Shown here piece by piece: positions 4,524-15,553 of a DNA stretch of 64,000 nt. The stretch lies in contig NZ_JNIK01000017.1 in NCBI RefSeq assembly GCF_000701365.1, forward strand, positions 248,001 through 312,000. Reading direction: 5' to 3'. The notes beneath the pieces were generated by a model. The model worked only from the letters and a program-made list of their open reading frames with translations. It searched no databases and had not been told where the DNA came from. The stretch comes from Blastococcus sp. URHD0036. Its GTDB lineage: Bacteria > Actinomycetota > Actinomycetes > Mycobacteriales > Geodermatophilaceae. The position numbers and the translations under genes were made by a program. How positions within the stretch are numbered: position 1 is the stretch's first letter; the number at the start of each line of letters is the position of its first letter.

Positions 4524-4592
4524 GCCCGCCGACGCTAGGCCGGTGGCGTTACGCCGCCGTGTCGCCGGCGGCACAGGTGCCTCCGCGGACTG

Positions 4593-4626
4593 TCGTGCTC
4601 TGCCCACATATCTGGGCAGAGCACGA
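4593..4626. repeat. Perfect 14-bp inverted repeat, core shared with 13955-14009
   Basis: Left arm 4593-4606 and right arm 4613-4626 are exact reverse complements around a six-base loop. The arm contains GTGCTCTGCCCA, which also forms the centre of the larger palindrome at 13955-14009. It lies 70 bases upstream of the dioxygenase start. It could be part of a terminator for the upstream gene, a protein-binding site, or a small dispersed repeat. Confidence 0.75.
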
Positions 4627-4651
4627 GCGTGCGGCGGAGTACCTGCCGGCT

Positions 4652-4690
4652 GCTCCGAGATTGCCCAGTGGGGCGGGGCAATGTCGGAGC
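4652..4690 (-). terminator. Hairpin downstream of the LLM oxidoreductase gene
   Basis: Arms 4652-4666 and 4676-4690 pair over 15 bases with one G-G mismatch, around a nine-base loop. It lies about 90 bases beyond the stop at 4779, a plausible terminator position for that gene. No T run follows, which is usual in high-GC actinobacteria. Confidence 0.5.
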
Positions 4691-4778
4691 GCGCGGGGGG
4701 CGGTGCGGGCCGCCGATCAGGCCGGCGGGATCCGGCGCCCGCACCTGCCCACGTGCGCGGCAGCCAGGGCATCCCCGG

Positions 4779-5756
4779 TCACCCCGGGACCCCCGGCCGC
4801 TCGGTGAACGCCGGGAGGACGTGCTCCGCGATCCAGTGCAGACCCTCCAGGTGCCCCTCGAGGCTGTCGGGGGCGTCGGCGAGGGAGGGCACGCTGGTGT
4901 GGGTGACCCCGAGGCCGGCGAGCCGGCCGCACTCGTCGACGATCTGCTGCGCGCTGGTGGGCTGGAACGACGCGGGCTGCACCGTGTGGTTCGGCCCGAT
5001 CCGCGGCTGCATGAGCGGGTAGTTGACGTCCAGAGGCCGCCCGTCCCGGAGCTCGGCCACCTGCTCCAGCATCCCGGGCAACTGCTCGGGCTCCTCCAGC
5101 CACGGCCCCTTCCCCAGCAGCCCGCCCGCCGGCGCCCAGCCGTCACCCTCGCGCGCGGCCCGGCGCAGCGACACCAGCGACCGGCCGCCGAACCACAGCG
5201 GCGGGTGCGGGCTCTGCACCGGCTTCGGCTCGAAGACGACGTCCTCGAACCGCACCCACTCCCCCGCGAACGACGGCGACTCCGCGGTCCACAGCTCCTT
5301 CATCACCGCGACGTACTCGTCCATGACCGCGCCCCGGTGCTCGAACGGCACGCCCAGCGCGGCGAACTCCCCCGGCGCCATGCCCACGCCGAAGGTCAGC
5401 GTGACCCGCCCGCCGGACAGGACGTCGAGGGTCGACACGGCCTTCGCGAAGTCCACGGGGTGGTGGTACGGCAGCACGATCACCGCCGAGTTCACCCGGA
5501 TCCGCGTCGTCGCGCCGGCCAGGAACGCCATCGCGGTGAACGCGTGCGGCCAGTGCGCGCCCATGTTCGCCGTCAGCGACGTGGGGACGACGATGTGCTC
5601 CGACACCGAGATCGAGTCGAACCCGAGCTCGTCGGCGGTGCGGGCGATCCGCTGGAAGTCCGGCGTCGTCAGCCGCGCCTGCCACGGCTCGGTGTCCCCG
5701 GCGTACCGGCTCGGCGGATAGCGGTCGAGGCCGGGGAGCCCCGTCGAGAACCTCAT
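4779..5756 (-). CDS. LLM-class (F420-dependent type) oxidoreductase
   Basis: Member of the bacterial luciferase-like monooxygenase superfamily; most actinobacterial versions use coenzyme F420, some use FMN. The 325-residue TIM-barrel protein carries the landmarks of the group: GFDSISVSEHI near residue 48, TRIRVNSAVIVLPYHHP near residue 84, and LSGGRVTLTFGVG near residue 113. The last two are the standard LLM beta-strand motifs. The start ATG has GGAG upstream. Only 20 bases separate it from the divergent zinc alcohol dehydrogenase, so the two may share a control region and act on related substrates, although nothing else shows this. The substrate is unknown. Confidence 0.85.
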   Translation of the reverse strand: MRFSTGLPGLDRYPPSRYAGDTEPWQARLTTPDFQRIARTADELGFDSISVSEHIVVPTSLTANMGAHWPHAFTAMAFLAGATTRIRVNSAVIVLPYHHPVDFAKAVSTLDVLSGGRVTLTFGVGMAPGEFAALGVPFEHRGAVMDEYVAVMKELWTAESPSFAGEWVRFEDVVFEPKPVQSPHPPLWFGGRSLVSLRRAAREGDGWAPAGGLLGKGPWLEEPEQLPGMLEQVAELRDGRPLDVNYPLMQPRIGPNHTVQPASFQPTSAQQIVDECGRLAGLGVTHTSVPSLADAPDSLEGHLEGLHWIAEHVLPAFTERPGVPG

Positions 5757-5776
5757 CGTGTGCTCTCCTTCACGGC

Positions 5777-6817
5777 GTGCTGACCACCAGCCTCGACGCC
5801 GCGCGCACCGTATCGGTCCGTGAGGTGGCCGAGCCGGTCGTCGTGCGGCCCACCGACGCCGTCGTCCGCGTCACCGCGACCTGCATCTGCGGGTCCGACC
5901 TGCACTCCTACCGCGGCGCCGGCGCCCCGCTGCCGATGCTCATGGGCCACGAGTTCCTCGGCGTCGTCACCGCCGTCGGTGCCGCGGTCACCACCGTCGC
6001 CCCGGGCGACCTCGTCGTCCCGCACTTCGCGGTGGTCTGCGGCACCTGTGCCAGCTGCCGGCGCGGCGTCCCCGGGTCGTGCGTACGGCTGTCCTTCTAC
6101 GGGCAGCCGGACGCCGACGGCCTGCCCACGGTGGGCGGCCAGTCCGAGCTCGTCCGCGTGCCCCTGGCCGACGGCACCCTGCTGCGCGTGGGCGACCGCC
6201 CCGCCGACGTCACCGACGCCGACCTGCTGGCGCTCTCCGACGTCATGGGCACCGGCCACCACGCGGCCGTCGCCGCCGGGGTGGGCCACGGGTCGACGGT
6301 CGTGGTGGTCGGCGACGGCGCGGTGGGACTGTCCGCTGTCCTCGCCGCCCGCCGGCTCGGCGCCGAACGGGTCGTGGCCCTGTCCCGGTACCCGGACCGC
6401 GCCGCCCTCGCCCGGGAGCTCGGCGCCACCGACGTCGTCGCCGAGCGCGGCCGGGACGGCGTGGCCGCGGTCCGCGAGCTGCTGGGCCGCGACGGCGCCG
6501 ACGCGGTGTGCGAGTGCGTCGGCAGCCAGGACGCCGTCGACACCGCGGTCGCCGTCACCCGGCCCGGTGGAGCCGTCGGCTTCGTCGGCGCACCGCAGGC
6601 GGTCCTGCCGTTCCGCCGCCTGTTCATGAGGAACGTGCGGGCCGGCGGCGGTGTGGCACCGGTGCGCGCCTACCTGCCGGAGCTGCTCGACGCGGTGCTG
6701 ACCGGCGGCCTGCGCCCCGGCCGGGTGTTCGACCGCGAGCTGCCGCTGGCCGACGTCGCCGAGGGCTACCGGGCGATGGACGCGCGCGAGGCCGTCAAGG
6801 TGCTGCTGCGCCCCTAG
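5777..6817 (+). CDS. Zinc-dependent alcohol dehydrogenase (MDR family)
   Basis: Medium-chain NAD(P)-dependent dehydrogenase that probably oxidises an alcohol or polyol. The catalytic zinc ligands are seen in CICGSDLHS near residue 38 and in MGHEFLG near residue 57. The four-cysteine structural zinc site is in CGTCASCRRGVPGSC near residues 89-103. The Rossmann motif is VVVVGDGAVGLSA near residue 173. The length, 346 residues, is standard. The GTG start lies only 20 bases from the start of the divergent LLM gene, and no Shine-Dalgarno is obvious. The stop overlaps the stop of the convergent enoyl-CoA hydratase gene by four bases. Confidence 0.88.
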   Translation: MLTTSLDAARTVSVREVAEPVVVRPTDAVVRVTATCICGSDLHSYRGAGAPLPMLMGHEFLGVVTAVGAAVTTVAPGDLVVPHFAVVCGTCASCRRGVPGSCVRLSFYGQPDADGLPTVGGQSELVRVPLADGTLLRVGDRPADVTDADLLALSDVMGTGHHAAVAAGVGHGSTVVVVGDGAVGLSAVLAARRLGAERVVALSRYPDRAALARELGATDVVAERGRDGVAAVRELLGRDGADAVCECVGSQDAVDTAVAVTRPGGAVGFVGAPQAVLPFRRLFMRNVRAGGGVAPVRAYLPELLDAVLTGGLRPGRVFDRELPLADVAEGYRAMDAREAVKVLLRP

Positions 6818-7569
6818 CCCTTCTCCGCCTGGCGCCGCATGGACCACATCTGGGCCGGGCGCTCGAACTGGGTCGCGATCTCCCACGACACCGCCGTCGC
6901 CGTCTCCTTGCGGAAGTTGCCCACGGTCACCCGCGCCAGCTCGGGGTCGGCGGCGACGCGGGCGGCCAGCTCGCGGGCGCGGCCCTCGACGGCGTCGGCG
7001 TCCACGGCCTCCCAGGCCAGTCCGAGCTCGACGGCCTTGGCCCCGCTGATCTCCTCGCCGAACAGCACCATCGCCGCCGCGGCCTCGCGGCCGATCAGCC
7101 GGGACAGGATGACGAAGTGCCCGCCGCCGGGGTGCATGCCGCGCTTGAGGAAGCCGGCCAGCAGCCGGGCGTCGGTCGCCACCACGCGCAGGTCGGTGGC
7201 CAGCAGCATGTTCATGCCGGCGCCGACCGCCGAGCCGCGCACGGCCGCGATGGTCGGCACCGTGACCTGGCCCAGCCGGTAGAAGGAGTCGTAGATCGCC
7301 GACATGCCCTCGTAGAGGTCGGGGGCGGCCGGGTCCTCGCCCGCGGCCTTGAGCGTCGCGACGTCGCCGCCGGCGCAGAACGACTTGCCGACGGCGGTGA
7401 TGACGAGTGCGCCGACCTCCGGCCGGGCGTCGACCTCCTCGAGCACCCCGGTCAGCTCGCGGGCCATCGCCGGCGTGAGCGCGTTGCGCCGGTCGGGCGC
7501 GTTCAGCGTCACCACCGCGACACCGCCGTCGATCTCGAGCAGGACCTCACCGGAGCCGGACTCAGCCAC
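6814..7569 (-). CDS. Enoyl-CoA hydratase/isomerase family protein
   Basis: Crotonase-fold enzyme acting on a 2-enoyl-CoA or a related acyl-CoA, most likely in fatty acid or side-chain degradation. The 251-residue protein shows GGVAVVTLNAPDRRNAL near residue 13, the oxyanion-hole region KSFCAGGDVATL near residue 60, and AAVRGSAVGAGMNM near residue 100. The position of the first catalytic Glu of true hydratases reads GAGMNMLLATD, so the second oxyanion loop is present but the usual acidic pair cannot be confirmed by eye. The reaction could therefore be isomerase- or hydrolase-like. I chose the GTG at 7569 because AAGAGG lies seven bases upstream. The 3' end overlaps the convergent dehydrogenase by four bases. 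Confidence 0.85.
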   Translation of the reverse strand: MAESGSGEVLLEIDGGVAVVTLNAPDRRNALTPAMARELTGVLEEVDARPEVGALVITAVGKSFCAGGDVATLKAAGEDPAAPDLYEGMSAIYDSFYRLGQVTVPTIAAVRGSAVGAGMNMLLATDLRVVATDARLLAGFLKRGMHPGGGHFVILSRLIGREAAAAMVLFGEEISGAKAVELGLAWEAVDADAVEGRARELAARVAADPELARVTVGNFRKETATAVSWEIATQFERPAQMWSMRRQAEKG

Positions 7570-7624: not shown

Positions 7625-8509
7625 TCACAGCACGCTCTCCACGGCGTCGGCGAGCAGCCGCTGCCCCTCCAGCGTCGGGTGCACGTCGTCGGGCAGCACC
7701 AGCCCGGCCGCGATGGAGCTGCCGCCGGCCTCCTCGGCGACCGGCCGGAACAGCTCGGTGGAGTCGGCGTACTCGGCGTCGTTGGCCTCCGCCGCGGCCG
7801 ACAGCGCCTCGTTGAGCCCGTCGCTGCCGGCGATCGACACCGGGTCGCCGTAGTCGAGCGAGTAGTAGCCGACGACGACGATCTGCCCGTCGTACCCGCC
7901 CTCGTCGCGCAGCGCGGAGAGGATCCCGTCGACGTTCTCCTGCAGCCGGCCGGTCAGCGCCTCGAGCCCCGCGGCGTCGTCGCACTCGCCGCCGGCCCGG
8001 CAGAGGAACCCGTCGTTGGCGCCGATCTGCAGGGTGACCAGTTCGACGTCGTCGGTCTCCTGCAGCACCTGGATCGCCTCCTCCAGCTGCGTGCCGTCGT
8101 AGTCGACGTGCAGCGGGAACGCGTCGCGGTAGCCGGGGTCGCGCCCCTGGACGTTCGTGCAGCCGAAGCTGACCGCGGTGAGATCGACGAAGCTCGTGGT
8201 GGTCTCACCGGGGCAGGTCGCGTTGACGACGTCCAGCCCGCGGTCCTCGCCGATCAGCTCCGGATATCCGACGAAGGCGTCCTCGTCCTGGTACCCGCCC
8301 GGGTTGTCGTCGATGTAGCCGAAGGGCACCGAGTCGCCGAGCGCGAGGTAGGTCCCGCCGCCGTCGTCGTCCACCGCACTGCTGCCGGCCGCCGGGGTGT
8401 CGTCGGCCGCGTCGTCCCCGGAGTCGCCGGAGTCGCCGGAGCTGCAGGCGGCCAGGGCCAGGGCGGTCAGGGCAGCGAGCAGGGCGGAGCGGCCCCGGGG
8501 CGTGCGCAT
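7625..8509 (-). CDS. SGNH/GDSL hydrolase-type lipoprotein
   Basis: Probably an extracellular, membrane-anchored esterase or lipase. The first 25 residues form a lipoprotein signal ending in the lipobox LAAC, followed by a Ser/Gly/Asp-rich linker. The catalytic serine is in the block I motif LALGDSVPFG near residue 58. The block III Asn is in QIGANDGF near residue 160, and the C-terminal Asp-His pair is in PDDVHPTLEG near residue 269. All four SGNH blocks are therefore represented. The total is 294 residues. The ATG at 8509 is used because it places the basic N-terminus of the signal peptide correctly. The TIGR03086-type gene ends 17 bases upstream, so the two may be cotranscribed. Confidence 0.85.
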   Translation of the reverse strand: MRTPRGRSALLAALTALALAACSSGDSGDSGDDAADDTPAAGSSAVDDDGGGTYLALGDSVPFGYIDDNPGGYQDEDAFVGYPELIGEDRGLDVVNATCPGETTTSFVDLTAVSFGCTNVQGRDPGYRDAFPLHVDYDGTQLEEAIQVLQETDDVELVTLQIGANDGFLCRAGGECDDAAGLEALTGRLQENVDGILSALRDEGGYDGQIVVVGYYSLDYGDPVSIAGSDGLNEALSAAAEANDAEYADSTELFRPVAEEAGGSSIAAGLVLPDDVHPTLEGQRLLADAVESVL

Positions 8510-8526
8510 GGCCCCATCATCACGGG

Positions 8527-9111
8527 TCAGCCGGCCGGCGGCCGCCACCCCGGGTCACGGCCCGTCCGGCCCAGCAGCCGGTCGAAGGCGGGCGCCTCGG
8601 CGGGGACGTCCACGGGCGGGCCGAACAACCCCTCCACCGGCGGTCCCTCACCCGTCGCGGCGAACACGAACCCCGTGGCCACCTCGGTCGCGCCGGGGTC
8701 CGCACGGTAGGGCGCGCCGACGGCGACGGCGAGGTCCCAGCCGTGCACCAGGACCTCGTCCACCGCGACGGCGGCCATCGCCTGGGCCGGCATCGTCACC
8801 CCACCCGCCTCCGCGTCGCCCTCCCACGCCGCCGGATCGCGCCAGGCGGCCGCCAGCGCCGCCAGCCGCTGCGGGATCCGGGTCCGCCAGTCGGGGGTGA
8901 GGGCGTCGGCCGAGGCGCTCGCCGTGCCGCCCACCCGCTTCTCCGCGGCCAGCCGGAAGGCCAGCGTCAGACCGTCGAGGTGGTCGAGCAGGGCGGCGAC
9001 CGGCGTGTCCGCGCAGGGTGTGGCGGCGGGGAGCTGGTCGTCACGGATCGCGGTGACCACGCGCGCCGTCTCGGTGGCCGCGGCGGCGAGGGCCTGCTGC
9101 ATCGTCTCCAT
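8527..9111 (-). CDS. TIGR03086-type / DinB-like putative metal-binding protein
   Basis: Belongs to the four-helix DinB/maleylpyruvate isomerase-like superfamily, whose actinobacterial members are often mycothiol-dependent or simply metal-binding; the function is unknown. The 194-residue protein shows LPAATPCADTPVAALLDHL near residue 26, the typical first helix with the family's conserved PC and H, then DEVLVHGWDLAVAVG near residue 136, whose H-x-W-D-L is characteristic of the family. Those histidines are the likely metal ligands. It starts at the ATG at 9111; a second ATG at 9102 is possible. The divergent gene at 9214 begins 102 bases away. Confidence 0.8.
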   Translation of the reverse strand: METMQQALAAAATETARVVTAIRDDQLPAATPCADTPVAALLDHLDGLTLAFRLAAEKRVGGTASASADALTPDWRTRIPQRLAALAAAWRDPAAWEGDAEAGGVTMPAQAMAAVAVDEVLVHGWDLAVAVGAPYRADPGATEVATGFVFAATGEGPPVEGLFGPPVDVPAEAPAFDRLLGRTGRDPGWRPPAG

Positions 9112-9213
9112 GGAGGGTCGACCGCCGGAGCGGCCGGAACTCAGCGGTCCGACCGGCCGGACCAGCCGACCGTGGGTACCGTCGGCGGGACGCCGACGTC
9201 GGAGGGGGAGCCG

Positions 9214-9972
9214 ATGGACGCCGCACTCCTGCTGCCCAGCGCCGGTCCGGAGCCGATCGGCGCGGACGACGCGCTGGCCGCCGTCGTCGGGTACGCCCTG
9301 GGCCGCCGGCCGCTGCGCTTCCGGGCGCCCAACGCCCGCGAGGGGCGCTGGGTCCGGGTCCGCGCGTTCGCGTTCGAGCGCTTCGACCGCCAGCCGCCGG
9401 AGACCTCGGCCCGGATGACCGACCGCGACGTCCTGCTCGCCGAGGGCCTGCACGGACGGCTCGACCCCGACGGCTGGACGGCGGTGCGGACCGCGCTCGA
9501 CGGGGCGCTGCCGGGAGCCGAGGCGGCGGTGCGTGGCGCCGCCGGCCGGGCGTTCTGGGAGCTGCCGGAGGAGCAGACCAGCGTCCTCGCCGAGCCCGGC
9601 ACGGTGGGCGCGGCGCTGCGCGGCCTGGCCGGCGGACCACACGGCACCTACGTGCTCGCCGCGCTGCACCACCGCCGGCCGGACCTCTTCCCGCTGCTGG
9701 ACGGCGTCACCCGACGGCAGCTGTGGCCGCACACCGCGGAGGGCGACAGCGGCGTGCACGCCGTCGTGCTCCGGGAGCTGCGGGCCAACGCGGCCGCCTT
9801 CGCCCTCCTCGAGGCCCGGGTCCGCGCCGTGCTCGGGATCCGGCTGACCCGGCTGCGCCTGCACGACGTGCTGCTCTGGCTCTCCGCCTCGCTGCGCTGG
9901 GACACCGCCGTCGCGTGGGGACGGGACTCCGAGGAGGCCGGCCCGCTCGCGGTCGCCGCCGCGGCCCGCTGA
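9214..9972 (+). CDS. Hypothetical protein, 252 residues
   Basis: I do not recognise this protein with confidence. It is soluble, with no signal peptide or membrane segment. Two halves are visible: an N-terminal stretch ending around residue 80 with many Arg residues, and a helical C-terminal half with THRRPDLFPLLDGV-like sequence (LHHRRPDLFPLLDGVTRRQL near residue 150) and a final LHDVLLWLSASLRWDTA. The latter pattern recalls actinobacterial DUF families in which a conserved H-x-K/R-P-x-L-x-P-x-L-D segment forms a helix hairpin, but I cannot name one. The ATG at 9214 has GGAGGGGGAG just upstream, a strong ribosome site, so the gene is real. The next gene starts 138 bases downstream. Confidence 0.75.
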   Translation: MDAALLLPSAGPEPIGADDALAAVVGYALGRRPLRFRAPNAREGRWVRVRAFAFERFDRQPPETSARMTDRDVLLAEGLHGRLDPDGWTAVRTALDGALPGAEAAVRGAAGRAFWELPEEQTSVLAEPGTVGAALRGLAGGPHGTYVLAALHHRRPDLFPLLDGVTRRQLWPHTAEGDSGVHAVVLRELRANAAAFALLEARVRAVLGIRLTRLRLHDVLLWLSASLRWDTAVAWGRDSEEAGPLAVAAAAR

Positions 9973-10048
9973 CCACCTGAACGGGCGACCTGGACACGGA
10001 CGGGGTCCCTCGGGAGGGGCAGGAACGGCCCGGGCCACCCCGCCGCCG

Positions 10049-10076
10049 GTGACGCACGGTCATGCTCCGCCGTCAC
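10049..10076. promoter_or_regulatory. Inverted repeat upstream of the amidoligase-like operon
   Basis: GTGACG at 10049-10054 and CGTCAC at 10071-10076 form a spaced inverted repeat, 35 to 62 bases before the first start codon of the operon at 10111. It could be an operator. Support is only the symmetry and the position. Confidence 0.25.
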
Positions 10077-10110
10077 ACGCCCGGGTCCCGGGCCGTCAGG
10101 TGGAGGAACC

Positions 10111-10422
10111 ATGGGCGAGAAGGGCAACTGGGCTCCCGGGCCTGCCGCGAGCGACGTCCTCGGCAAGGGGACGGGCAGCCTCCCGGCCACAGCCGACGGC
10201 AAGGGCTTCGAGACCGCGTTCGACAGCAAGGGCCTGTCGGCCCCTGCGGACGCGGCCAAGGGCGCGGCCTCTCCCGCGGACGCCGCGAAGGGGTTCTCGT
10301 CCGCCTCGGACGCCGCCAAGGGCACCGGAGGCGACGGCCGGTCCGCCGGACTGCCTCCGCTCGGCGGCGTCCTCCGCCGGCGGGACGGCGGGGACGGGCC
10401 CGGCTCCGGTCCGGAGAGCTGA
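10111..10422 (+). CDS. Small repeat protein, every lysine in a K-G motif (candidate substrate peptide)
   Basis: A 103-residue hydrophilic, low-complexity protein with no signal peptide or membrane segment; I know no family for it. Its striking feature is lysine placement. It has exactly seven Lys, all followed by Gly, and each preceded within one to four residues by an acidic residue: EKG, DVLGKG, DGKG, DSKG, then DAAKG three times at ten-residue spacing (about residues 48-73). The only Trp and Asn are near the N-terminus, and the tail is Gly/Arg/Asp-rich. GGAGG lies five bases before the ATG, so translation is well supported. The membrane protein gene starts five bases after the stop and an amidoligase-like gene follows, so this may be a substrate, but that is inference. 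Confidence 0.75.
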   Translation: MGEKGNWAPGPAASDVLGKGTGSLPATADGKGFETAFDSKGLSAPADAAKGAASPADAAKGFSSASDAAKGTGGDGRSAGLPPLGGVLRRRDGGDGPGSGPES

Positions 10423-10427
10423 CGCCG

Positions 10428-11216
10428 GTGACCTCGCCCCGACTGCCGCGCGGCCGGGACCTCGCCCGCACGGGGGGTCCCGTCCTGTCCGACCGTCCGC
10501 CCGGCCGGGGCGTCACCCTCCCGGCCGAGCGCGACCCCGTCACGGGGAAGTGGTTGTCCGGCGACCCCGCCGGCCGGGCCGACAAGGGACGGCAGAGCGT
10601 TCCGCACCGGCCACCGGTGGCAGCGCTCGTCACGGCGGGCGCGCTGCTCGTCGCCGGCGCCGTGGCACTGGTCGTCCTCCTCGGCGGCGGGGACGACGAC
10701 CCGGCGCCGGCCGCCGCGCCCACGCCCAGCTCGGCGTCCGCCGAACCCACCCCGGAGCCGACGCCGGAGCCCACACCGGCGTTCACCGGCCCGCGGACGG
10801 TGCCGATCGTGCTCACCACCACCGAGTTCGTGTCGCCGCCCGGGTTCGGGCCCGACCCCTCGCTGGGCTCGGTGGGCGAGGTCCGGCAGCGGACGTGGGA
10901 GCTCACCGGCCCCTGCGACGGCACCGGCACGTGCACCGTCGTGCACTGCCGGGCTCCGGGGAACTGCAATCCCCCGTTCGAGGCCGCGCCCACCGGCACC
11001 GGCGAGTACGCCGCCATCTCGACGACCCCCGTGGTCTGGCAGAACCCGTCCTGCTCCGGCGGGATGGCCACGGCGACGATCACGTTCCGCGTGTCCGGGC
11101 CGCCGGAGAAGCCGACGCTGACCGGCACCTGGGTCGAGAGCGCCGACCCGGTGATCATCCCGGGGCCCGCCCTCTGCGGCGTCTACCTCGGCACCTTCAC
11201 GTTCACGTCGGCGTGA
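10428..11216 (+). CDS. Membrane-anchored extracytoplasmic protein, cysteine-containing domain
   Basis: Unknown function. The 262-residue protein has about 60 polar cytoplasmic residues containing RDPVTGKWLSGDPAG, one membrane segment (about residues 64-86, PVAALVTAGALLVAGAVALV), and a Pro-Glu-Thr linker with PTPEPTPEPTP around residue 110. An extracytoplasmic domain of about 145 residues follows with six cysteines (in GPCDGTGTC, VVHC, GNC, NPSC and PALC), an even number that suggests three disulfides. The topology is that of a type II membrane protein. It is the middle gene of a tight operon: five bases after the small K-G protein, and overlapping the amidoligase-like gene by GTGA. It may present or transport the product, but the sequence does not show this. 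Confidence 0.75.
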   Translation: MTSPRLPRGRDLARTGGPVLSDRPPGRGVTLPAERDPVTGKWLSGDPAGRADKGRQSVPHRPPVAALVTAGALLVAGAVALVVLLGGGDDDPAPAAAPTPSSASAEPTPEPTPEPTPAFTGPRTVPIVLTTTEFVSPPGFGPDPSLGSVGEVRQRTWELTGPCDGTGTCTVVHCRAPGNCNPPFEAAPTGTGEYAAISTTPVVWQNPSCSGGMATATITFRVSGPPEKPTLTGTWVESADPVIIPGPALCGVYLGTFTFTSA

Positions 11217-12379
11217 CCGCAGCGCTGGGCGGGCTGGTCGTCCCGGACCCGCGCGCCCGGTGCGGGGTCGAACAGGAGTTCGCGGTCCGCGACGCCGCCG
11301 GCCTCGCGGTCGACGTCCGGGAGCGGATCGACGGGTGGGCGCTGGGCGCCCGGTTCGACCCCGGCGACCCCCATGCCGCCCGCGGCCGCTGGGGCGGCGT
11401 GGTCACCGCCGACGGCCCCGAGGCCGAGGTGGTGACCCCGCCGGTCGTCGTCGGCCGCGGCACCGCGGCCCAGGTGCACGCCTGGGCCGCGGCCGGGCGG
11501 GACGCCCTGGCCGGCGAGCTGCCGCCGGGCTGGACGCTGGCGGGCTACTCGACGCACGTCAGCACGTCGGTCGACGACGACCTCGTGGTGCAGGCGGCGC
11601 GCCTCGTCGTCAGGCGGCTGGCGCCGGCACTCATGCTGCTGCTGGACGGCCCCGACTCCCCCGGTCTGCTGGTCCGGCCCCGGCCGGGGCGCCTGGAGAT
11701 CTGCGGCGAGTACGCCGAGGGACGGTCACTCCGGCACGCCGCCGCCGTCGCGGTCGCCGCCTCCGGACTGGCCGCCGACGCCGTCCGTTCCCGGCGCACC
11801 CGCGCCCTGCTGCCTCCCCCGCTCCGGGTCCGCACCCAGCGGGCGGTGCAGCGGTACGGCACCTACGTCGACCGGCGGGCGTTCGGTCCCGACCTCTACG
11901 CGGAGGGACGGACGGCCCGGCTGCGCTCGCGCGGCGGGACGACGACCGCGGGCGCCCACCTCGCCCGGGTCGTGGACCTCCTGGGCGACCGGCTCGCCGA
12001 GCTCCTCGACGCCGACGACCTCGCCGCCCTGCACGCCGTGACCGCCGGGGACCTGCCCCTGCCGGTCGAGCGGGACACCCCCGAGCGCGACGACGCCCCG
12101 CGTGCCACGCCCCGGCCCATGGACCTGCGTCCCCGCGCGGCGGCCCGGGTCCGGGTCGAGGTCGTGACCGCCACCTGGTGGACCTACGTGGTCCGGCTCG
12201 ACACCGCGCACCGCAGCCGCTGGCTCACCCTGCCCGGCAGCTGGATCGAGTCCTTCCTCGAGGCGCTGCACGCCGGGCGGCTCGACGACGTCCTCGCCGA
12301 CCTGGTGCCCGCGCCGGCCGGCACCGTCACCGGCGCGGCACCTCGATCCACCCGGTGGGCTGGCGCAGCGGCGCCTTGA
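11213..12379 (+). CDS. Carboxylate-amine ligase-like (amidoligase / glutamate-cysteine ligase fold) protein
   Basis: Probably an ATP-dependent enzyme joining a carboxyl group to an amine. The first 170 residues show, in order, the signatures of the glutamine synthetase-like amidoligase fold: GVEQEF at 18-23 (metal/ATP-binding E-x-E), EAEVVTPP at 70-77 (substrate E and the T/S-P-P turn), STHVST at 113-118 (H-V strand) and GRLEICGEY at 159-167 (R-x-E). The C-terminal 200 residues, rich in Arg, are not recognisable. Assignment to one subfamily (GCS2, amidoligase) is not possible by eye. It starts at the GTG overlapping the previous stop (GTGA), implying translational coupling. Its 3' end overlaps the convergent FadD-like gene by 53 bases. 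Confidence 0.6.
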   Translation: MTAALGGLVVPDPRARCGVEQEFAVRDAAGLAVDVRERIDGWALGARFDPGDPHAARGRWGGVVTADGPEAEVVTPPVVVGRGTAAQVHAWAAAGRDALAGELPPGWTLAGYSTHVSTSVDDDLVVQAARLVVRRLAPALMLLLDGPDSPGLLVRPRPGRLEICGEYAEGRSLRHAAAVAVAASGLAADAVRSRRTRALLPPPLRVRTQRAVQRYGTYVDRRAFGPDLYAEGRTARLRSRGGTTTAGAHLARVVDLLGDRLAELLDADDLAALHAVTAGDLPLPVERDTPERDDAPRATPRPMDLRPRAAARVRVEVVTATWWTYVVRLDTAHRSRWLTLPGSWIESFLEALHAGRLDDVLADLVPAPAGTVTGAAPRSTRWAGAAAP

Positions 12380-13874
12380 GCACCTTGCCGCCGGCGTTGC
12401 GCGGCAGCGGTCCGCTGAGCACCCGCACGAACTGCGGCACCTTGAAGTCCGCCAGGCGCTCGCGCGCGAACGCCGCGAGGTCGGGCACCAGCGCCGCGGG
12501 GTCGACGCCCTCCCGGGGCAGCACGACGGCGCCGACCTTCTCCCCCATCACCGGGTCCGGCACGCCGACGACCGCCACCTCGACCACGTCGGGGTGCTCG
12601 GCGAGGGCGTTCTCCACCTCGACCGAGTACACGTTCTCCCCGCCGCGGTTGATCATGTCCTTGGCGCGGTCGACGATCCGCACGATGCCCCCGGCCGGCA
12701 CCTGGTCGATCCGCGCGACGTCGCCGGTGCGCAGCCAGCCGTCGACGAACGTCTCCGCCGTGCGCGCCGGGTCGCCCCAGTAGCCGGCGACCACGTTAGG
12801 CCCGCGGACGAGCAGCGCCCCCACCCCGGTGACCGGGTCGGGCCGGTCGATCCGCACGTCGTCCACCGGCGCGGCGAAGCCGACGGCGTCGGCATGCTCG
12901 GCGGCGTACTCGTGCGGGAGGAACGTCGCCAGCGCCGTGGTCTCGCTCAGCCCGAAGCCGTTGCCCACCCGGGCACGCGGGAAGGCGTCCACCAGACGGT
13001 GGACCAGCTCCGGCGCGATCGGCGCACCGCCGTAGCTGACCGTGCGCACGGTCGAGACGTCGGTGGTCGCGGAGTCGGGGTGGCGCAGCACGAGCTCGTA
13101 GATCGTCGGCACGGTGGTGATCAGCGTGATGCCGTACTCCGGGATGGCGGCGAGGAAGTCGGCCGGCCGGAACTGCGGCATCACGACGGCGAGGCCGCCG
13201 AGCTCGACCTGGGTCATCAGCTGCGAGCAGCAGCCCGTGACGTGGAACAGCGGCACGGAGATCAGCGTGGAGTTCGCCAGCGCGGGGTCGCGGTCGAGCT
13301 CCCGGCAGCGGATGACGTTCTCGATCGTCGTCAGGAGGTTCTCGTGCGTGACCATGGCGCCCTTGGGCCGGCCGGTCGTGCCGCTCGTGTAGAAGAGCGC
13401 GGCCACGTCGGTGTGCGCGCGGTCGGCGTCCGGCGTCCCGTCCGGGTCGGCATCGGGCAGCGGCTCCCCCGGGCGGACGACGTACGCGGCGCCGCAGTCG
13501 GCCAGCACGTACTCGGCCTCGGCCTCGGCCAGCCGGGTGTTCAGGGGGACGACGACGCCGCCGGCCAGGTGCGTCCCCCAGTAGGCCAGGACCCAGTCCA
13601 GGCCGTTGCCGATCCGCAGCGCGACCCGGTCGCCGGGGCCCACGCCCGCTCCGCGCAGACCGGCCGCCACCCGGCGTCCGCGCTCGACCAGCTGCGCGTA
13701 GGTGACGCTGCCGCCGCCGAGCTCGGCGACCGCGGGGCGCTCCGGGTACCGCGCGGCGACGTCGAGGAGCAGCGCCACCACGTTGCGCCGCAGGCCCGTG
13801 TACCGCCGGATCCCGTCCGGGCCGGTCTCGATCCCGCTGGTGTCGAAGGGGTAGCTCCCCCGGTCCCGCTGCAT
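12327..13874 (-). CDS. Acyl-CoA synthetase (AMP-binding, FadD-like)
   Basis: Activates a carboxylic acid to its CoA thioester via an acyl-adenylate. The 515-residue protein has the P-loop-like motif FYTSGTTGRPKGAM near residue 160, the adenine-binding GFGLSETTALA near residue 300, WLRTGDVARID near residue 380, and the hinge plus A10 region ending in PRNAGGKVLK near residue 500, where the lysine is catalytic. The adenylating domain is a little short between residues 130 and 150, where a Pro/Asp-rich linker replaces part of the usual fold. The ATG at 13874 has GAGGAGG upstream. It is divergent from the DUF1810 gene, with a 25-bp palindrome between them. Substrate chain length cannot be judged. 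Confidence 0.88.
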   Translation of the reverse strand: MQRDRGSYPFDTSGIETGPDGIRRYTGLRRNVVALLLDVAARYPERPAVAELGGGSVTYAQLVERGRRVAAGLRGAGVGPGDRVALRIGNGLDWVLAYWGTHLAGGVVVPLNTRLAEAEAEYVLADCGAAYVVRPGEPLPDADPDGTPDADRAHTDVAALFYTSGTTGRPKGAMVTHENLLTTIENVIRCRELDRDPALANSTLISVPLFHVTGCCSQLMTQVELGGLAVVMPQFRPADFLAAIPEYGITLITTVPTIYELVLRHPDSATTDVSTVRTVSYGGAPIAPELVHRLVDAFPRARVGNGFGLSETTALATFLPHEYAAEHADAVGFAAPVDDVRIDRPDPVTGVGALLVRGPNVVAGYWGDPARTAETFVDGWLRTGDVARIDQVPAGGIVRIVDRAKDMINRGGENVYSVEVENALAEHPDVVEVAVVGVPDPVMGEKVGAVVLPREGVDPAALVPDLAAFARERLADFKVPQFVRVLSGPLPRNAGGKVLKAPLRQPTGWIEVPRR

Positions 13875-13954
13875 GCCGTCCTCCTCGACCACCGTTGCTC
13901 GTCGCAACCATCTTCCGCCTGGGTGCGAGCCCACTCGCGGGCGGCTGGTGTGCC

Positions 13955-14009
13955 CCGAGCGTCCCTGTGCTCTGCCCACGGGTGGTGGGCAGAGCACAGG
14001 GACGCTCGG
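13955..14009. repeat. Perfect 25-bp inverted repeat between divergent genes
   Basis: Arms 13955-13979 and 13985-14009 are exact reverse complements with a five-base loop. The inner part of each arm contains GTGCTCTGCCCA, the same core as the palindrome at 4593-4626. It lies between the start of the FadD-like gene (13874, minus) and the start of the DUF1810 gene (14050, plus), where no gene ends, so a normal terminator role is unlikely. Confidence 0.8.
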
Positions 14010-14049
14010 AACAGGTTGGTGGCGTCCCGGGCCGGGGCATGGAGCGGCG

Positions 14050-14469
14050 GTGAGCGATCGGTTCGACCTGCAGCGCTTCGTCGACGCGCAGTCCGGCACC
14101 TACGAGCAGGCGCTCGCGGAGCTGCGCGCCGGCGCGAAGCGGAGCCACTGGATGTGGTTCGTGTTCCCTCAGGTGGCCGGCCTGGGTCGCAGCTCCACGG
14201 CGCAGCGGTACGCGGTCCCCGGACTCGACGAGGCGCGCGCCTACCTGGCCCATCCGGTGCTGGGTCCGCGGCTGGTGGAGTGCGCCCGGGTGCTCGCCCG
14301 GCTGGAGGGGCGCACCGCCGAGCAGGTGTTCGGACCCGTCGACGCGGTGAAGCTGCGCTCGTCGATGACCCTCTTCGCTGCGGCGGCCCCCGACGAGCCG
14401 GTGTTCGGCGAGGTCCTCGACGCCTTCTTCGCCGGCGAGCGGGACGACGCCACGACGTCCCGCCTGTGA
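14050..14469 (+). CDS. DUF1810 family protein
   Basis: Unknown function. This 139-residue cytoplasmic protein matches the DUF1810 family over its whole length: FDLQRFVDAQSGTYEQALAE at the N-terminus, then SHWMWFVFPQ near residue 32, then LGRSSTAQRYAV and LRSSMTLFAAAAPDEPVFGE. These motifs and the length are all typical. It starts at a GTG; a weak GGAG lies nine bases upstream. The next gene, on the same strand, starts 43 bases after the stop and may be in the same transcript. DUF1810 proteins are often encoded near macrodomain or nucleotide-processing genes in other bacteria, which is not the case here. Confidence 0.9.
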   Translation: MSDRFDLQRFVDAQSGTYEQALAELRAGAKRSHWMWFVFPQVAGLGRSSTAQRYAVPGLDEARAYLAHPVLGPRLVECARVLARLEGRTAEQVFGPVDAVKLRSSMTLFAAAAPDEPVFGEVLDAFFAGERDDATTSRL

Positions 14470-14512
14470 GCTCGAGCGGGCGCGAGTGGCCCGCGTCGGC
14501 GAGGCTGGGGCG

Positions 14513-15553
14513 GTGAGCGAGGACAGCAACGGATCGGGCTACGTCGAGCAGGGCCGGGACTACTCCCGGGACACCAACTACATCACCGACCGGATCACCG
14601 CCGACGGATCGGGCGGGTGGAAGGTGGAACCCGGCCGGTACCGGCTCGTCGTCGCCCGGGCCTGCCCGTGGGCAAACCGGTCGACGATCGTCCGGCGGCT
14701 GCTGGGCCTGGAGCCGGTGCTGTCGATGGGCATCTGCGGCCCGACCCACGACGAGCGCAGTTGGACGTTCGACCTGGACCCCGGTGGCCGCGACCCGGTG
14801 CTGGGCTACGAGCGGCTGCAGGAGGCCTTCCTCGCCCGGGACCCCGACTACTCGCGCGGCATCACGGTCCCGGCGATGGTCGACGTGCCGACCAAGGCCG
14901 TCGTCACCAACGACTTCGCGCAGATCACCCTCGACCTCTCCACCGAGTGGACGGCGTACCACCGCGACGGCGCTCCCGACCTCTACCCCGAGCACCTGCG
15001 GGACGAGATGGACGAGGTCATGCAGCGCGTCTACACCGAGGTCAACAACGGGGTGTACCGCTGCGGGTTCGCCGGTTCGCAGCGCGCCTACGACAAGGCC
15101 TACGGGCGGCTGTTCACCGCGCTGGACTGGTTGTCGGAGCGGCTGGCCGACCGCCGCTACCTGATGGGCGACACGATCACCGAGGCCGACGTCCGGCTGT
15201 TCACCACGCTGGCCCGGTTCGACGCGGTCTACCACGGCCACTTCAAGGCCAACCGCTCGAAGCTGAGCGAGATGCCGGTGCTGTGGGGCTACGCGCGGGA
15301 CCTGTTCCAGACGCCGGGGTTCGGCGACACGACCGACTTCCCGCAGATCAAGGAGCACTACTACGTCGTCCACGCCGACATCAACCCCACCAAGATCATC
15401 CCGATGGGGCCGGACACCTCGAACTGGCTGACCCCGCACGGTCGCGAGCAGCTGGGCGGCTCGCCGTTCGGGGACGGGACGCCGCCCGGTCCGGTCGCCG
15501 CCGGCGAGGAGGTCCCGGCCGACCACGGGCCGGGGGGCATCGGCCACCGGTAG
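14513..15553 (+). CDS. Glutathionyl-hydroquinone reductase-like (GST fold) oxidoreductase
   Basis: Members of this Xi-class GST group (YqjG/PcpF) reduce thiol-conjugated hydroquinones through a catalytic cysteine. Here the motif is ACPWANR with the Cys at residue 51. Actinobacteria make mycothiol instead of glutathione, so the in vivo thiol is probably mycothiol; that is inference. The 346-residue protein also shows the C-terminal helical domain with YLMGDTITEADVRLFTTLAR near residue 220 and the family tail INPTKIIPMGP near residue 293. The start is the GTG at 14513. The C-terminal extension of about 45 residues after NWLTPHGR is Gly/Pro-rich and probably disordered. Confidence 0.88.
   Translation: MSEDSNGSGYVEQGRDYSRDTNYITDRITADGSGGWKVEPGRYRLVVARACPWANRSTIVRRLLGLEPVLSMGICGPTHDERSWTFDLDPGGRDPVLGYERLQEAFLARDPDYSRGITVPAMVDVPTKAVVTNDFAQITLDLSTEWTAYHRDGAPDLYPEHLRDEMDEVMQRVYTEVNNGVYRCGFAGSQRAYDKAYGRLFTALDWLSERLADRRYLMGDTITEADVRLFTTLARFDAVYHGHFKANRSKLSEMPVLWGYARDLFQTPGFGDTTDFPQIKEHYYVVHADINPTKIIPMGPDTSNWLTPHGREQLGGSPFGDGTPPGPVAAGEEVPADHGPGGIGHR

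Follow-up and report, generated by a model that had tools for sequence, protein, structure and literature searches.

In a stretch of 64,000 nucleotides from Blastococcus sp. URHD0036 (contig NZ_JNIK01000017.1, positions 248,001 to 312,000), hereafter called the window, three consecutive genes encode a small protein rich in lysine-glycine (K-G) pairs, a single-pass membrane protein and a ligase-like enzyme (Table 1). An initial annotation, made from the sequence alone, had interpreted these genes as a candidate peptide-modification system in which the repeated K-G units could serve as substrate. By comparing the locus with related loci in other genomes, we found the system of small protein, membrane protein and enzyme to be conserved; the K-G repeats as substrate units were not retained.

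Table 1. Features of the three-gene locus (positions are those of the window)
Feature	Position	Strand	Basis and remarks
Small protein, 103 residues, N-terminus MGEKGN	10111..10422	+	ATG start, GGAGG just upstream; 12 counterparts with (M)GEK elsewhere
Hexapeptide MGEKGN, constant N-terminus of the small protein	10111..10128	+	Cross-locus comparison of 13 small proteins
Single-pass membrane protein, 262 residues, GTG start, transmembrane segment at residues 67-85, six-cysteine ectodomain	10428..11216	+	Hydropathy, charge
Cytoplasmic segment TLPAERDPVTGKWLSGDPAGRADK of the membrane protein	10521..10592	+	By eye across loci; counterpart of the linker between enzyme and transmembrane segment of fused homologues
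Ligase-like enzyme, 388 residues, GTG start; core about 15-290, small C-terminal domain about 310-362	11213..12379	+	Homologue alignment
Inserted stretch relative to congener G002, 2,356 bp	9975..12330	no strand	Window compared with L046 and L045 by blastn, junction letters

The three reading frames were confirmed as annotated, with gaps of 5 bases between the small protein and membrane protein genes and of -4 bases between the membrane protein and enzyme genes. The six extracytoplasmic cysteines attributed to the membrane protein agree with the prediction of one transmembrane (TM) segment, a net-positive N-terminal side and all six cysteines beyond the segment, and the four ordered ligase motifs attributed to the third protein could all be located (G18-V-E20-Q-E22, E70-A-E72-V-V-T-P-P, S113-T114-H115 and R155-P-R157-P-G-R160-L-E162). 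None of the three proteins matched a Pfam family up to E 1. With NCBIfam, matches were obtained for the membrane protein alone, the best being CU044_5270_fam (E 1.8e-4, 21.4 bits compared to a cut-off of 100), which spans the TM segment and a proline-rich part.

Relatives of the enzyme are thinly scattered. Single-sequence searches returned the window's own genome only, both among 59 relatives (1/59) and among 112 genomes of its family (1/112), so that the search in other Geodermatophilaceae proposed in the initial annotation found nothing. Among 394 genomes of the class, the search yielded two good relatives, G230 and G302 (48 and 46% identity), making three credible carriers in 394, and no match was obtained in the collections of genome contigs, viral contigs and plasmids. 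A profile of these three sequences detected 12 loci in the genome contig collection, two of them being G230 and G302 themselves; the taxa comprise Frankiaceae, Humibacillus, Acidimicrobiaceae/Acidimicrobiales/Acidimicrobiia, Actinomycetales, Knoellia and Nocardioides, next to an unplaced Actinomycetota metagenome-assembled genome (MAG) and one Rhodospirillales MAG. Later profiles added the IMG/VR contig L029 and the genomes G844 (L035) and G651 (L036), which brings the total to 16 loci including the window, mostly from Actinomycetota. The enzyme was present in 2 of 12 genomes of G230's family, 4 of 396 genomes of a draw from the phylum and 1 of 66 genomes of the class of G844; in the family of G181, 4 of 186 genomes matched, of which 3 are credible after dropping one relaxase-like frame. 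Two carriers are cultured strains, Knoellia locipacati NBRC 109775 and Nocardioides islandensis KCTC 19275. Loci having a 1-kb stretch in common were recognised as duplicates and counted once (L003=L011, L004=L015, L030=L014, L032=L035, L033/L034=L036, L048=L019, L049=L012, L050=L016, L052=L020). G192, G211 and G502, with weak partial matches (E 5e-4 to 0.007), were dropped before counting, as was G993 (E 1.6e-4), of which the frame looks relaxase-like by eye. No second enzyme of the L029 type was found in viral contigs besides L029 itself.

At 13 of the 16 loci, a nearby open reading frame (ORF) of 63 to 179 codons encodes a product starting with (M)GEK, so that the small protein of the window has counterparts beyond its own genome. 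When ORFs of 35-200 codons at about 3.1 kb or less from the enzyme are considered, exactly one (M)GEK ORF accompanies the enzyme in 12 of the 15 further loci, and no other such ORF occurs among the 183,566 bases that these loci comprise. G2, E3 and K4 are present in 13/13 small proteins and G5 and N6 in 11/13; at positions 7 to 12, the most common residue at any one position occurs in at most 5 of 13. Translation starts at GTG in three of the 13, and GGA, GAG or AGG lies just upstream of 12 of the 13 starts. The lysine codon of the head is always AAG; because the glycine and glutamate codons vary, as do third codon positions, the constancy of the head is one at the protein level. Beyond it, blastp up to E 0.01 sorts the 13 bodies into a group of six, a pair and five that stand alone; they contain no cysteine and no stretch of transmembrane hydropathy, and end in differing C-termini. 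The small protein is polar and probably disordered.

An MGEKGN start pattern was found in 6 of the 394 class genomes, namely the three enzyme genomes and three others, in which it opens a 506-codon ORF, an ORF ending after six codons and a 68-codon ORF, without enzyme motifs in the stretch examined; a backward-read control pattern gave three matches in the same genomes. In viral contigs, 20 stretches contained the pattern and none of them an enzyme motif in the stretch examined, and these matches are probably internal to longer proteins because the frame is open for at least 37 codons upstream in 18 of the 20.

The position of the membrane protein varies between loci. A separate membrane protein gene lies between the small protein and enzyme genes in the window, L011, L015, L017 and L035, and the expected conservation of gene order therefore holds for 5 of the 16 loci, other arrangements being found elsewhere. 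In L014, L018, L019 and L020, enzyme, TM segment and ectodomain are encoded in one frame. L012 and L016 carry the small protein, a lipoprotein-like gene and the membrane protein on the strand opposite to the enzyme gene and converging with it; in L022 the small protein and membrane protein genes are divergent from the enzyme, and in L029 the small protein gene is divergent and the membrane protein gene lies downstream of the enzyme. The L036 enzyme is spread over different frames, and since the TM segment stands in a different frame from the preceding part, a fusion cannot be claimed there. In the 14 loci having a membrane protein, a cytoplasmic segment resembling xPER recurs between enzyme and TM segment, with Glu in 14/14 and Glu-Arg in 12/14 as counted by eye; seven loci have it on the membrane protein, four within the fusion, and L022, L029 and L036 on the tail of the enzyme. 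Since the two proteins are fused in four loci and this segment travels with either of them, the membrane protein belongs to the same machine as the enzyme. Cysteine counts are even (2, 4 or 6) in all 14 ectodomains; their sequences diverge, only 2 of 91 pairs (L011/L015 and L012/L016) being alike at E 1e-3, and Pfam gave weak matches at most, such as DUF3558 in L015 (E 0.027). That three unrelated genes with coincidental N-termini are merely chance neighbours, as might be suggested by the mostly unrelated small-protein bodies and by the three loci without a small ORF, is scarcely credible given the association in 13/16 loci, the four fusions and the presence of the xPER-like segment in both arrangements.

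The lipoprotein-like gene between the small protein and membrane protein genes (L012, about 8440-9555; L016, 9682-10761, minus strand) is possibly a fourth component; in L016 it has no Pfam or NCBIfam match over threshold. In L014, a protein with many GGxGxD-type repeats is encoded just upstream of the small protein (5519-7405).

The pattern that had drawn attention to the small protein of the window is genuine. Its seven lysines (positions 4, 19, 31, 40, 50, 60 and 70) all precede a glycine and follow an acidic residue by one to four positions, a complete set of K-G pairs that was reached in none of 20,000 shuffles of the protein, and three DAAKG units stand at 47, 57 and 67, ten residues apart. 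In the other 12 small proteins, only 3 of the 55 lysines beyond residue 6 are followed by glycine and the repeats are absent, so the K-G units, proposed as substrate or crosslink sites, were rejected as a general feature and are best regarded as a local elaboration in the window. The small protein of L029 (4952-5491, minus strand) begins with MGEKFN and contains, by eye, five acid-x-Ala-Lys-Ser units at 12-residue steps, and as such is a second case of repeats in the family.

Six residues are very short for the leader of a ribosomally synthesised and post-translationally modified peptide (RiPP). A pathway of that kind, with the hexapeptide as minimal leader and the body as core that is crosslinked and then exported, would nevertheless be in line with the constant head and variable body, since graspetides possess a constant leader, a variable core and, in some cases, repeated units (PMC8939145), and with the repeats in two members (DAAKG at 10 residues in the window, ENAKS-type at 12 in L029). 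Conversely, neither Pfam nor NCBIfam revealed an ATP-grasp family in any of the three proteins of the window, genes for an ATP-grasp enzyme, a protease or a transporter were not recognised beside the enzyme there, and the small proteins have no common acid-Lys or acid-Ser/Thr core pattern, which together make such a pathway distinctly improbable.

The cassette of the window lies where two convergent genes end and has no counterpart at the same site in either of the two congeners examined (blastn, junction letters). In G002, window positions 9153-9974 and 12331-14481 are neighbours, 3 bases apart (L046, 2442 and 2446), and in G001 position 9977 is directly joined to 14050 (L045, 2921-2922). Because of this junction, an acyl-CoA-synthetase-like gene (12327-14099) is also absent at the G001 site; as the gene is present in G002, variation at this site is not confined to the cassette. 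With its final codons, the enzyme gene reaches into DNA common to the window and G002. No long terminal repeats were found at the cassette ends, the longest matches being 8 bases direct and 11 inverted. The small gene set is apparently movable. On the IMG/VR contig L029 (1-8672), genes for terminase small subunits and for HNH proteins, two of each, lie beside the cassette; a SET-domain-like ORF was also noticed there by eye (4540-4911).

Such a distribution raises the possibility that the module serves in conflict or defence, be it against phages, in superinfection exclusion, in kin recognition or by way of an antibacterial peptide, the ectodomain being responsible for recognition and the small protein acting as effector. 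The scattered presence (1/112, 3 credible of 394, 4/396, 1/66 and 3 credible of 186 genomes), the insertion as an islet, the fast divergence of ectodomains and bodies, and the copy on an IMG/VR contig with terminase genes would all fit. PADLOC, however, gave no defence-model match for six of seven proteins, the enzyme included, and the lone match, PD-T4-6 on the L029 membrane protein (E 4e-4), covers the TM segment and a Pro/Thr-rich stretch and was judged compositional; moreover, the queries tried gave no homologue in collections of phages or plasmids. We consider a conflict function conceivable but rather on the unlikely side, and it is compatible with, not opposed to, a modification of the small protein by the enzyme.

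The reading that we favour, tentatively and with a probability of roughly 0.45, is that a membrane-tethered ligase modifies or conjugates the small protein via its constant N-terminus. In a mobile module of two or three genes, a divergent carboxylate-amine ligase of the YbdK type would act on the cytoplasmic side of the membrane, either tethered to the single-pass protein or forming one chain with it. The small protein, from which Met1 is probably removed, would be recognised by its head Gly-Glu-Lys-Gly-Asn and, in an ATP-dependent manner, be modified or joined to a partner through this head, with the Glu3 carboxylate, the Lys4 amine and the N-terminal Gly amine as candidate reacting groups. 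The species-variable, disulfide-type ectodomain might sense or bind something outside the cell and thereby gate the reaction. Methionine aminopeptidase cleaves a methionine preceding glycine, and ligases of the superfamily convert a carboxylate into an acyl phosphate, which is then joined to an amine.

Nine acid, His and Arg residues of the motifs (E20, E22, E70, E72, H115, R155, R157, R160 and E162) do not vary among the 15 aligned enzymes, window included, and G18, D67, G216 and D227, among others, are likewise kept. The order and kind of the motifs resemble those of YbdK-type ligases (Pfam name GCS2): in a forced full-length alignment with a profile of YbdK from E. coli and 11 relatives encoded on plasmids, the four motifs are in register (GVExE with GIELE, EAEVATPP with ESMLELATD, GYSTHLNV with GQHVHVG, VRPRPGRLEI with IRPSP..TVEVR). 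Genuine Amidoligase_2 (PF12224) members, L037 and L038, contain comparable ordered motifs (GFEVELL, CEVITPPL, VHLHVD, VEVRVLPG). Unlike the YbdK type, the enzyme has an additional small domain and is accompanied by a membrane protein and a small protein, and the similarity score is not significant.

Several results weigh against the favoured reading. The hhalign comparison of the enzyme with the YbdK-type profile gave E 0.03 and a probability of 1.7% (reversed controls, E 0.38 and 0.18), compared to 22.6% for a known related pair, YbdK-type and Amidoligase_2, at the same settings. Against two Amidoligase_2 proteins, 13 columns were aligned with a probability of 0.6%, and against PDB sequences no match was found at E up to 10. 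Pfam Amidoligase_2 matched one of 13 members at E 0.18, among equally weak families, with 11.1 bits where the curated cut-off is 22. L013, L021 and L036 lack a (M)GEK ORF, the acid-Lys theme is not general across the small proteins, and the small protein could be a subunit instead of a substrate. BLASTP of the enzyme with YbdK gave E 1.2; no PF12224 match was found in the window's own genome, and no Amidoligase_2 relatives of L037 in the viral, plasmid and phage collections. As no profile score is significant, the ligase class rests on motif order and chemistry. For the amidoligase fold initially proposed, the motif order fits and every profile comparison stays below significance; assignment to a divergent carboxylate-amine ligase of the YbdK (glutamate-cysteine-ligase) type is accordingly worded here as our inference from sequence, also where the fold is concerned.

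The small domain of about 50-70 residues follows the enzyme core except in L012, L016 and L017, where it precedes it; a profile matched it upstream of the core with E 3.5e-10 and 6.7e-7 in G925 and G980, the genomes of L012 and L016. Judged from these alignments, the enzyme family shows a domain permutation. KTSC matched the small C-terminal domain in one of 13 members (E 0.025).

Alternatively, the small protein might serve as a subunit for regulation or docking, its head binding a tethered enzyme that acts on a small molecule or another protein. This explanation draws on the resemblance of the enzyme motifs to those of ligases of free amino acids, YbdK-type enzymes acting on free glutamate, and on the largely unrelated bodies, which are expected if only a short head matters. 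Separate, variable and cysteine-free bodies would however be unusual for an enzyme subunit, and the near-invariant Glu-Lys suits a reacting site at least equally well, for which reason we hold a docking role to be somewhat unlikely.

Modification through the constant head, as we favour it, would invite comparison with pupylation. For Pup, the ligase PafA activates a carboxylate, which is then joined to an amine (PMC3511204). Both systems occur mostly in Actinomycetota. Here, by contrast, it is the N-terminus that is constant, the Gly-Gly-Glu/Gln end of Pup is absent from all 13 C-termini, the ligase is tied to a membrane protein and the module occurs as accessory islets; moreover, the window enzyme has no Pfam match to the Pup ligase (PafA/Dop) family, which is also not among the 6 weak families over 13 members. 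The module shares a constant head, a variable body and repeats in some members with graspetides. None of the scanned family models (Pfam, NCBIfam, PADLOC) matches the system over threshold, and no paper mentioning MGEKGN was found in the literature searched, a 2009 amidoligase survey (Mol Biosyst 5:1636) lying outside that search, so that an earlier mention is possible.

The module may represent an undescribed means by which a small protein is chemically modified or attached. Should the enzyme indeed act on the small proteins, it would be another case, after Pup, of bacterial small-protein conjugation or modification by a carboxylate-amine ligase, here in a system linked to the membrane and recognisable by a simple N-terminal signature through which members are easily found. 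The proposed mechanism is a variant of ligase-plus-small-protein systems, and membrane-gated N-terminal tagging, if true, would be a new kind. A bolder version, which we regard as unlikely, is protein tagging of opposite polarity to pupylation, whereby small proteins would be activated or joined via the GEKGN head by a ligase built into a membrane receptor. With the disulfide-bonded, fast-changing ectodomain of this receptor, the whole would be a mobile module for sensing and conjugation in conflicts with phages or rival cells. Being smaller than 2.4 kb in the window and present in two cultured strains, the module is directly testable.

In L021, from the Rhodospirillales MAG, the enzyme domain forms the N-terminus of a 2,313-residue protein (7980-14918; PKD_6 at E 0.018, below cut-off), with an ABC-transporter-like ORF upstream and no (M)GEK ORF in the locus. 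Genome G933 carries two copies of the module (L019 and L020), each with its own (M)GEKGN protein.

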